Positions 59,061 through 63,168 of a stretch of DNA of 64,000 nucleotides are shown here, piece after piece. Numbering within the stretch: the first letter of the stretch is position 1; each line of letters begins with the position of its first letter. A program made the translations under genes and the position numbers. The notes under the pieces were generated by a model that saw nothing but the letters and a program-made list of their open reading frames with translations, did not search any database and was not told where the DNA came from. The stretch is from Actinomycetes bacterium. GTDB taxonomy: Bacteria > Actinomycetota > Acidimicrobiia > Acidimicrobiales > RAAP-2. The DNA is taken from NCBI GenBank assembly GCA_021791845.1, contig JAJYVT010000004.1, forward strand, positions 1 to 64,000, in the 5' to 3' direction.

Positions 59061-61310
59061 CTACCCGGCGGGTGGCGCGGTCGTGGTCGTGGTGGTGGTG
59101 CTCGACGAGGTGGTCGTCGTGGTCGACGGCGGCGGTGTCGGTGTCGTGGTGGTGGTCGTGGTGGTCGTGGTCGACGGGGGCGGTGTCGTGGTGGTGGTCG
59201 TGGTGGTCGTGGTCGAGGAGCTGGTGGTGGTCGTGGTCGAGGAGCTGGTGGTGGTCGTGGTCGAGGAGCTGGTGGTCGTGGTCGACGGCGCATCGGGGTG
59301 GGCCACGAGCCCGAACGGGCCGTTGTCGCCGGGGCCGGGCGGGGGCGTGGCGAACGGGTTCGACGGCCGGCCGGGATTGCTCGCCCCGATCGCCACCACG
59401 ACGGCGAACACGGCGGCGGCGGCGACGGCGCCCAGCGAGCCGAAGGCGAGCGGCCGGGCCAGGGCGGCGAACCGCTCGCGCCGGACCTCGGTGCGCCGGC
59501 GGCGCTCGAGCTCGGGCGTGAGGTGCCCGCGTTGCTCGAGCCACGACATGAAGGGCGCAGACGCGTAGACGGCGCCTTGCCAGCAGACGAGCCCGACCAG
59601 GAGCCAGGTGGCGCTGGCCACGGCGGCGAGGGCACCAGCCAGGCCCCAGAGGACGACCGTCAGGAAGAGCTCCGTACGGGCCGAGACGAGCGCTGCCCAC
59701 AGGCTCCGGCGGTCCTCGACCTTGGGCGTGCGGAGGAAGACGCCCTCCTTGCGAACGAGGCCCTGGACGCAGGCGATCGCCACGGTCCACGAAAGCGACA
59801 GCCAGTTGGCGAAGGCGAACAACGCCCGCCGGTAGGAGATGTGCGTTCGTTGGCGCAAGGCCCAGACCGCCCGGAGGAGGCCGATGGCCAGCAGCGTGCC
59901 CGGAAGCAGGATGGTGGGCCCGATGAGGGGACGGATGGCCACCGACGAGCCGGACAGCAACAGTGCGGCCACGACCGTGAGCACGACCGTGAACCCGAGC
60001 AGGACGAGGTCGTTCGTCCACTGGAGACCGCCGATGAGGTAGTCGAGGCGTTGCTCGACGGAGAGTCGGTTGCCCGGGTCCCGGTCCCAGGGCATGAGGT
60101 TCCGCCAGTGACGGCGCAGGATCTGCATGCCGCCGAAGCACCAGCGGAACCGCTGGCTCTTCAGCGACGAGAAGGTGAGCGGCATGATGCCCTGCCCGTA
60201 GCTGCGAGCGATGAACAACCCGGAGTAGCCGGCCATGAGGAGGCGGAGCGACGTCTCGGCGTCCTCGGTGATGCACCACTCGTCCCAGCCGCCCAGGCCC
60301 TCGAGCGCCGTGCGCCGGAGGAGGCCCATGGTCCCGGCAAAGATGATGGAGTTGCGCTCGTTGCGTGACCGCATGGCCGACGCGAAGAAGTAGCGGTAGG
60401 CGTCGTAGCAGGCCGTCAGGTACCGGTTGCCTTCGTACTCCCGGTAGTCCTGCGGCGTCTGGAGGAAGGCCAGCCCGGGATCGGCGAAGTACCCCACGGT
60501 GTCGTCCAGCCAGCGCTGGTCCACGAGGTAGTCGGAGTCGACGACGGCGATGATCTCGGCCCGCGGGTTGGTGTAGCGCTCCAGGGCCAGGTTGAGGGCA
60601 CCGGACTTGTACCCCGGCCAGGGGTCCACGTGGACGAACGTCACCCGCTCCCTCCCGGCGCAATAGGCCTCCACGGGACGCCACACCTCGGGATCGTGGG
60701 TGTTGTTGTCGACCACCACGACCTCGAAGTCGGGATAGGCCAGGGCCTCGACGGCCTTGATCGTCTGGATGAGCATGTCCGGCGGCTCGTTGTAGGCGGC
60801 GATGTGCACGGAGACCATCGGCCGGTACGAAGGTTCGGCCACAGGGAACGCCCGCGAGTGCTGGACCCTGCAGATCACGTCGCAGGTCTCGAAGGCGAAG
60901 GTGACGGCGATGGTGAGCGCCGCCAACTCGAGGAGGAAGAGGATGGCGGAGGCGATCGAGCCGAGCACCGAGAAGTTGCTGGCCACCGTGACGTCGGCTG
61001 CGAACCCCAGGTACGCGAGGGCGGCGGCGAGGAAGCTGGCCAGGAAGTACTGTCCGAACGGGTTCCACGTCCGGCGCAGCGCCGCCACCGCCAGCGTGGA
61101 GACGAACACGAAGGCCTCGCTCGCCTCGACGGGGACCGACGGCAGCGTCCACCACAGTGCGGCGAGGTAGCCCGCGGCGAAGGCCCCGGTGGCGCCGAGG
61201 ACCGCACCGAGCACCCACGACGCGAACCGGACGCGCGACCCGAGGAGGAACAGCAGGAGCCCGCCGATGCCGAGATTGAGGCTGCAGACCAAGAAGACGC
61301 TGAACAGCAA
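59061..61310 (-). CDS. Membrane glycosyltransferase family 2 with Thr-rich tail
   Basis: This 749-residue processive-type glycosyltransferase has five or so N-terminal membrane helices, a GT2 domain from VSVHIAAYNEPPDML with AVVDSDY (about 257), ITEDAETS (about 347) and SQRFRW (about 387), then more helices. This is the BcsA/cellulose- or hyaluronan-like layout without a PilZ domain. The last 70 residues are a Thr-Ser-Pro run, probably extracytoplasmic and possibly glycosylated. The start is TTG at 61310, the first start after an in-frame stop at 61326. It probably makes an exported polysaccharide or glycolipid. Confidence 0.85.
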   Translation of the reverse strand: MLFSVFLVCSLNLGIGGLLLFLLGSRVRFASWVLGAVLGATGAFAAGYLAALWWTLPSVPVEASEAFVFVSTLAVAALRRTWNPFGQYFLASFLAAALAYLGFAADVTVASNFSVLGSIASAILFLLELAALTIAVTFAFETCDVICRVQHSRAFPVAEPSYRPMVSVHIAAYNEPPDMLIQTIKAVEALAYPDFEVVVVDNNTHDPEVWRPVEAYCAGRERVTFVHVDPWPGYKSGALNLALERYTNPRAEIIAVVDSDYLVDQRWLDDTVGYFADPGLAFLQTPQDYREYEGNRYLTACYDAYRYFFASAMRSRNERNSIIFAGTMGLLRRTALEGLGGWDEWCITEDAETSLRLLMAGYSGLFIARSYGQGIMPLTFSSLKSQRFRWCFGGMQILRRHWRNLMPWDRDPGNRLSVEQRLDYLIGGLQWTNDLVLLGFTVVLTVVAALLLSGSSVAIRPLIGPTILLPGTLLAIGLLRAVWALRQRTHISYRRALFAFANWLSLSWTVAIACVQGLVRKEGVFLRTPKVEDRRSLWAALVSARTELFLTVVLWGLAGALAAVASATWLLVGLVCWQGAVYASAPFMSWLEQRGHLTPELERRRRTEVRRERFAALARPLAFGSLGAVAAAAVFAVVVAIGASNPGRPSNPFATPPPGPGDNGPFGLVAHPDAPSTTTTSSSTTTTTSSSTTTTTSSSTTTTTTTTTTPPPSTTTTTTTTTTPTPPPSTTTTTSSSTTTTTTTAPPAG
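59088..59283. repeat. Low-complexity GTC/GTG repeats encoding the Thr-rich tail
   Basis: Nearly 200 bases of ACC/ACG/ACT-type codons (read leftward) encode Thr runs broken by SSS and PPP blocks. Near-identical 24-base units around 59216-59280 suggest slippage-driven length variation. Confidence 0.85.
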
Positions 61311-61640: not shown

Positions 61641-62024
61641 GTGGGTACCGAGGTTCGGCTCGGATCGCTCTCCGAGTTTCGTGATGGCGGGCTGACCGGT
61701 GTCGAGACCGGGGGACATCGGTTGATCGTCGGTCGCAAGGGCGACGAGGTGCACGTTGCCCGCAACCGATGCCCGCATCTGGGGTTTTCCCTCACCCGCG
61801 GCCCCGGCGGCCTGCGGTACGAGGACGGCGTGGTGCAGTGCCCATGGCACAACTCGCGCTTCGACGTCGGCACCGGGGAGAACCTCGACTGGGTCTCGGG
61901 CTTTGCGGGACGGACGGTGCCGCGCTGGTCGCGGTCGTTGATCGCACTGGGGCGCAAGCCCCATGGGCTGGACACGCTGTCGGCCACCGTCCGCGACGGG
62001 ACCGTCTACGTCATCGTCGAGTAG
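61641..62024 (+). CDS. Rieske [2Fe-2S] ferredoxin-like protein
   Basis: This 127-residue protein is a single Rieske domain. The cluster ligands are Cys44-x-His46 (CPHLG) and Cys67-x2-His70 (CPWHNSRFD). It resembles Rieske ferredoxins or the small electron-transfer partner of ring-hydroxylating enzymes. The GTG follows GAGGAGG by seven bases. No oxygenase gene adjoins, so its partner is unknown. Confidence 0.88.
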   Translation: MGTEVRLGSLSEFRDGGLTGVETGGHRLIVGRKGDEVHVARNRCPHLGFSLTRGPGGLRYEDGVVQCPWHNSRFDVGTGENLDWVSGFAGRTVPRWSRSLIALGRKPHGLDTLSATVRDGTVYVIVE

Positions 62025-62308
62025 TCGGTCTTCGGTCCGTCGAGGTAGCCCCGGATCGCGGTGGCGTACTCGGGGAAGTAGCGGGGGATCACGTCCAAGG
62101 CGAACCGATCGAGGATCGAGCCCGCCGGCTCGCGGTCGAGCAGGAAGGCGAACGACGCGCGGACGAGCTCGGCGTCGCCAACGGCGCGGCAGCCCACGGT
62201 GGCGGCGAACCCGGGAGGCACGGTGACCCGGTGGTCCGTACGGGCGCCGCCGTGCTCGACGTGGACCGCCCACGAGCCGTCCGCACGTGGGGCGACCCGG
62301 ACCTCCAT
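62006..62308 (-). CDS. Conserved-looking hypothetical protein
   Basis: I do not recognise this 100-residue protein. It begins MEVRVAPRADGSWAVHVEHGG and has a helical C-terminal half (ASFAFLLDREPAGSILDRFA) with an aromatic end. The ATG follows a GGGG run. Its 3' end overlaps the convergent Rieske gene by 19 bases. Codon use matches its neighbours, supporting a real gene. Confidence 0.6.
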   Translation of the reverse strand: MEVRVAPRADGSWAVHVEHGGARTDHRVTVPPGFAATVGCRAVGDAELVRASFAFLLDREPAGSILDRFALDVIPRYFPEYATAIRGYLDGPKTDYSTMT

Positions 62309-62434: not shown

Positions 62435-63101
62435 ATGTTCCTGCACAACAAGCGACTGATGTACACCGTCCGGGTCGACCAGGCCAACCCCCAGTTCGCC
62501 CGGTTGCTGCTGGAACAGTTCGGAGGTCCGAACGGGGAGCTCGGCGCGGCGATGCGGTACTTCACGCAGGCCTGGAACGAGCCCGACGAGGCGCGGCGTG
62601 GGATGCTGGCGGACATCGCCACCGAGGAGCTCTCCCACCTGGAGATGGTCGGCCAAGCGCTGGTCCTGCTCATGAAGGGGTCGCCCGCATCGGAGGTGGA
62701 CAAGGTCGAGGGCGCCTACCTCGGCGACCTGCTCGACGGGAAGTACGAGGATTACATCGAGCTTTCGACGACCGCGCCGGCGTCGGTGCTCTCGGGCGGT
62801 GCACCCGGCCTCTTCGACTCCGGCGGCAACCGCCGGGTTGCGCGACACGCTCAACTTCCTCATGACCCGGGAGATCGCCCACCAGCAGATGTTCGAGGCT
62901 GCGCTCGCCTCCCTCGAAGAGAACTTCCCTCCGGGTACGCTGGCCGGTGACGAACGCCTGGGCCATGTCTACGTCCACGACTCGGACGGGTCCGGCGACC
63001 AGTCCCCCTCCGACGGCGCCAGCGGCTTCGAGCTGGTCCAGCGGCACAAGCCGGACTGGGGGTTCGAGCTCCACCGCGACCCGCTGCAGCGGGCGGCATG
63101 A
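62435..63101 (+). pseudogene. Manganese catalase broken by an internal deletion and frameshift
   Basis: The 5' part (MFLHNKRLMYTVRVDQAN onward) has manganese ligands Glu35 and EELSH (Glu65, His68) of the dimanganese catalase family. After LFDSGGN at 62829 the frame breaks. Family similarity resumes in another frame with RDTLNFLMTREIAHQQMFE, which holds the last ligand histidine. About 40-45 residues that normally lie between, including the third-helix glutamate ligand, are missing. Catalytic activity is therefore not expected. The junction is a perfect seven-base hairpin (CCGGCGG-CAA-CCGCCGG, 62820-62836). GAGGAGG precedes the ATG. A sequencing or assembly error is the alternative. Confidence 0.85.
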
Positions 63102-63127
63102 CAGACCATCCTCTGACCCCGGCCGAA

Positions 63128-63168
63128 CGACGTGGCCGCCCGGCCGACGTGGCCGCCCGGCCGACGTG
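63128..63168. repeat. 17-bp tandem duplication downstream of the catalase remnant
   Basis: CGACGTGGCCGCCCGGC occurs at 63128 and 63145, followed by seven bases of a third copy. The remainder of the 169-base gap to the ABC gene shows nothing I can name. Confidence 0.8.

Follow-up and report, generated by a model that had tools for sequence, protein, structure and literature searches.

Manganese catalases of the Pfam family PF05067 hold their metal with five ligands, three Glu and two His. We take the Glu ligands to be residues 35, 66 and 148 in L. plantarum numbering. The two His ligands, His69 and His181, are tabulated as active-site residues in PMC11796326. The L. plantarum enzyme (PDB 1JKU) and Anabaena Alr3090 (PDB 6J42) belong to the same family as the gene described here. 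Both align with its nearest intact relative and possess the helix that this gene lacks. That relative is locus L025 (Actinomycetes bacterium TL1-5.bin92, JAJZZB010000060.1), which has 83% identity to the gene in the first 132 residues and 67% in the last 89; the tail QTIL is common to both. L025 differs in being a single open frame of 263 amino acids with all five ligand columns, and its neighbouring DNA shows no similarity to the window, by which we mean the whole stretch of 64,000 nucleotides that was analysed (positions 1-64000 of contig 70 of the assembly).

Bacterial pseudogenes formed by short-homology deletion are the other point of comparison. They carry one frameshifting deletion between conserved flanks. 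The locus in the window differs from them in that its junction is also spanned by a short palindrome. Among the papers listed in a literature search, titles and abstract openings show no manganese catalase pseudogene of this kind. Here, we describe a PF05067 manganese catalase gene that is very probably a pseudogene, produced by a 119-bp deletion that probably took place between CGC triplets, in a genome where a katG-like gene may act as a backup.

Two pieces of one manganese catalase gene

The region 62435-63101 contains two pieces of a single manganese catalase gene in different reading frames. Both pieces exceed the curated Pfam cut-off of 27 bits for PF05067 in a profile search. The first covers profile positions 1-127 (118.4 bits, E 3.7e-34) and the second covers positions 167-227 (31.7 bits). 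These matches bear out the identification as a manganese catalase that had been made from the letters alone (hereafter the sequence-only reading). On the NCBIfam model NF052557, the pieces score 78 and 21.8 bits and intact L025 scores 134.7 bits. Since neither the pieces nor L025 reaches the equivalog cut-off of 350, the gene falls in a subgroup outside that equivalog. The third-position G+C content of the two pieces (0.92 and 0.91) is within the range of the long high-GC3 open reading frames of the window. The features of the gene are as follows, with ligand positions (L. plantarum numbering) set by alignment to 1JKU.

62435, plus strand: ATG that opens the catalase frame
62435-62830, plus strand: N-terminal 132 codons of the manganese catalase
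62435-62950, plus strand: open frame from the start codon, 171 amino acids, the last approximately 39 out of frame
62537-62539, plus strand: codon of ligand Glu35
62627-62629, plus strand: codon of ligand Glu66
62636-62638, plus strand: codon of ligand His69
62820-62836, plus strand: perfect 7-bp stem with a CAA loop, across the junction
62831-62833, plus strand: CGC at the deletion junction, placement ambiguous by approximately 3 bases
62832-63098, plus strand: the last 89 catalase codons (C-terminal piece), in the other frame
62880-62882, plus strand: codon of ligand His181, within the C-terminal piece
63099-63101, plus strand: early in-frame stop (TGA), five codons ahead of the ancestral one
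63102-63116, plus strand: still legible end of the C-terminal tail (QTIL), followed by the ancestral TGA stop

The missing 119 bases and the lost ligands

A scan of species-representative genomes for relatives of the first piece yielded 62 loci. Eleven of these, L025-L035, were aligned with the window; every one of them has a single open frame, 262-302 amino acids long. All 11 have exactly 119 extra bases at the junction. This number is not divisible by three, hence the change of frame between the pieces. The lost stretch contains the AAEARAK helix, in which the ligand Glu at residue 156 of L025 aligns with residue 148 of 1JKU. The fourth metal ligand (Glu148) is therefore deleted from the DNA, while the codon of the fifth, His181, remains but is out of frame. 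The product read from the start codon ends at 62950 after 171 residues. It keeps three of the five ligands and loses two, so that the three Glu and two His ligands no longer stand in one reading frame. This product is predicted from its sequence to be inactive and could hardly be a working catalase.

The frameshifting internal deletion had been recognized in the sequence-only reading, which expected a missing segment of roughly 120-135 bases, not a multiple of three. The latter part was right, and the size falls just under the expected range. The loss of one ligand glutamate had also been proposed. The Glu is indeed gone, but two ligands are lost from the product once the out-of-frame His181 is counted.

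Could the two frames still be joined into a short, catalase-like protein by recoding, so that the gene is not a pseudogene at all? Coding constraint is kept in both segments, as this would require. We reject recoding because the DNA lacks the helix that bears the ligand, and no change of reading frame can restore it; moreover, 20 of the 103 alignment columns that are invariant in the 10 other relatives have been deleted, and a further TGA lies downstream. Recoding is thus highly improbable. We regard it as equally far-fetched that the 171-residue remnant, or the separate pieces, is still expressed and retained in a non-catalase role, such as that of a helical fragment that binds metal.

A second lesion near the C-terminus

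The 3' end of the gene reads GCA TGA CAG ACC ATC CTC TGA, that is, Ala, stop, QTIL and stop. The corresponding tails are AADQTIL-stop in L025 and AARQEVL-stop in L032. The simplest origin of the first TGA would be a change from CGA. This premature stop costs the protein no more than five residues and by itself may do next to no harm. It is a lesion independent of the deletion, which favours a true pseudogene. Comparison with relatives, which the sequence-only reading had recommended, confirmed the gap and also brought out this lesion, which that reading had missed.

The same TGA is met when the own assembly is searched with the L025 protein. That search, with E values up to 10, matched only residues 1-146 and 171-263, reading through the one TGA, and found neither a second catalase copy nor the missing segment. 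The draft assembly comprises 3.55 Mb in 160 contigs and is 90.84% complete and 3.26% contaminated. These figures and the nearest relatives of the gene suggest a metagenome-derived actinobacterial genome, probably of an uncultured organism. The gene thus carries disabling lesions relative to its intact relatives, and an assembly that is approximately 91% complete contains no intact copy.

The hairpin at the junction

The palindrome at the junction is exact, as had been noticed in the letters: CCGGCGG (62820-62826), CAA (62827-62829) and CCGCCGG (62830-62836). It had been read as the trace that replication slippage would leave. According to the model of such deletions in PMC4134008, the polymerase halts at a hairpin with a direct repeat on either side, and hairpin and one repeat are lost together. 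What should be left is a single direct repeat without the hairpin. At this locus the stem is still present, with one arm on each flank of the junction, which indicates that the hairpin in its compact form was created by the joining itself. The two ends of the lost segment have only CGC in common in L025, the nearest intact relative. Near these ends, the left arm CCGGCGG is found in none of the 11 relatives. The full right arm CCGCCGG is likewise found in none, and six of its seven bases are present in L032 only. The reading of the stem as a signature of slippage is therefore not supported.

Several points can still be made for a hairpin-driven event, which would leave the gene a pseudogene and change only the mechanism. 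The 7-bp stem across the junction is perfect, and a 7-nt stem with a loop of 3-8 nt occurs in only 51 of the 1599 forty-base tiles. Before the deletion, an inverted repeat made up of all or most of the two arms may have bracketed the segment now lost. Counted over the 64-kb window, stems with perfect 7-nt arms and a 3-nt loop begin at 19 sites. The junction stem folds with -10 kcal/mol (z -2.08), and 7 of 200 shuffled sequences fold as well or better. By these counts, such a stem would be met infrequently at any one place, but in DNA of 73% G+C it is nothing remarkable. The retained stem, the scant homology at the ends and the absence of both full arms near them in the 11 relatives make hairpin-driven slippage quite unlikely. 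An ordinary short-homology deletion is the most likely mechanism, with the stem as a chance feature or a minor contributor. This mechanism is reconstructed from L025 as a stand-in for the ancestor's bases, and the shared CGC, a match of three bases, is near what chance would give in such DNA.

Age of the damage

The substitutions that separate the gene from L025 are concentrated in the third codon position on both sides of the junction. In the left piece, they number 14, 13 and 55 at the first, second and third positions (of 133, 132 and 132), and in the right piece 18, 16 and 36 (of 87 each). Pairs of intact relatives, such as L025-L026 (32, 18, 59 and 27, 21, 32), resemble this pattern. Among the 103 columns that are invariant in the 10 other relatives, the gene differs at 9 of the 83 that remain after the deletion, and L025 differs at 8 of all 103. 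Lineage-specific changes were counted with six of the 10 other relatives as outgroups (L028, L030, L034 and L035 were left out). These amount to 2, 4 and 9 in the left piece and 4, 3 and 5 in the right piece of the gene, numbers too few for dating, and to 5, 4 and 10 and 4, 4 and 3 in L025.

The codon-position bias kept on both sides implies that the damage is recent, or that it is not real. Constraint would have acted on the gene until recently, in agreement with the conserved flanks and recent event of the sequence-only reading; a gene that is intact in the living cell, with a false junction in the assembly, would also account for these data. Such a junction could have been made during assembly or library making, for example by polymerase jumping in G+C-rich DNA. 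The lack of decay beyond that between intact relatives is what this explanation predicts, the assembly is a draft in many contigs, and a stem is present at the junction. For a short-read assembler to collapse the segment, the two ends would have to share a repeat of much more than three bases, and the ends in L025 offer no long direct repeat, only CGC. Elsewhere in the assembly nothing matches the missing segment, and the in-frame TGA is a separate lesion. We consider an artefact of the draft assembly unlikely, and an ordinary recent pseudogene the most likely state of the locus.

The proposed course of events can be outlined as follows. A single deletion of 119 bp, probably by short homology between CGC triplets, would have taken out the helix that bears the fourth ligand and put what follows out of frame. 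A second, milder lesion would be the early stop close to the C-terminus, presumably a nonsense change from CGA to TGA. The loss of the catalase would be tolerable through a katG-like gene elsewhere in the genome. The candidate is an open frame of 746 amino acids on contig 146 with two PF00141 matches. We take this layout to be that of katG. No match to the PF00199 catalase family was obtained in the own genome.

Genomic neighbourhood and distribution

The genes before the catalase are the following.

59061-61310, minus strand: family 2 glycosyltransferase, its C-terminal tail made of long Thr/Ser runs
61641-62024, same strand as the catalase: stand-alone Rieske [2Fe-2S] protein of 127 amino acids, upstream of the catalase
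62006-62308, minus strand: open reading frame of 100 codons between the Rieske gene and the catalase

Close orthologues of the glycosyltransferase are present in two of the 12 other genomes of the genus (G003 and G002; 78% and 72%), which places the contig in the genus. In both, DNA similarity stops at the start codon of the glycosyltransferase, and the G002 contig has only 600 more bases. The 100-codon frame has no Pfam or NCBIfam match. A homologue with 48% identity is found in one of the 12 other genomes of the genus (G001) in a different neighbourhood, and the 15 kb around it contain no match to the catalase, Rieske, ABC or glycosyltransferase proteins. When the minus-strand frame, the Rieske protein and the ABC protein were searched in the loci of the 11 relatives and in L104-L107, nothing better than E 0.017 was obtained. 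Similarity between the window and the two nearest catalase loci is confined to the gene and, at most, approximately 30 bases ahead of it. A nucleotide search of 61 genomes, including the own genome, found no orthologous locus; outside the locus, only short matches of at most approximately 75 bases were seen. Just behind the ancestral catalase stop, at 63130-63168, a 17-base unit (acgtggccgcccggccg) occurs twice in tandem and is followed by the start of a third copy.

The catalase gene itself is patchily distributed. PF05067 exceeds its cut-off in only one of 150 genomes of the family, the own genome. Two others, from another genus of the family, have weak matches below the cut-off to profile positions 146-198 (G091, contig 34:20808-20966; G094, contig 43:113453-113611), and these matches sit inside open frames of 673 amino acids. 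At the level of the order, the first piece is matched in four of 397 genomes, namely the own genome, G465, G198 and G346, the last with a fragment of 33 residues. G465 and G198 are taken as the same records as L025 and L026. The G346 match (L090, 1504-1599, minus strand) is another manganese catalase remnant, which corresponds to the first 32 codons with 69% identity. The 3.1-kb L090 locus holds no further catalase match with E below 1. This remnant is perhaps an independent loss. The patchy pattern fits a lateral origin of the gene. It is also compatible with old vertical descent and many losses within the order, to which the two nearest intact copies also belong.

Significance

Gene callers may annotate one or two catalase fragments at this locus, and the genome should not be counted as a carrier of manganese catalase. 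Beyond annotation, the finding has little importance. It offers a small, clean case of breakage in an enzyme gene of patchy distribution, for which a katG-like gene may serve as backup.
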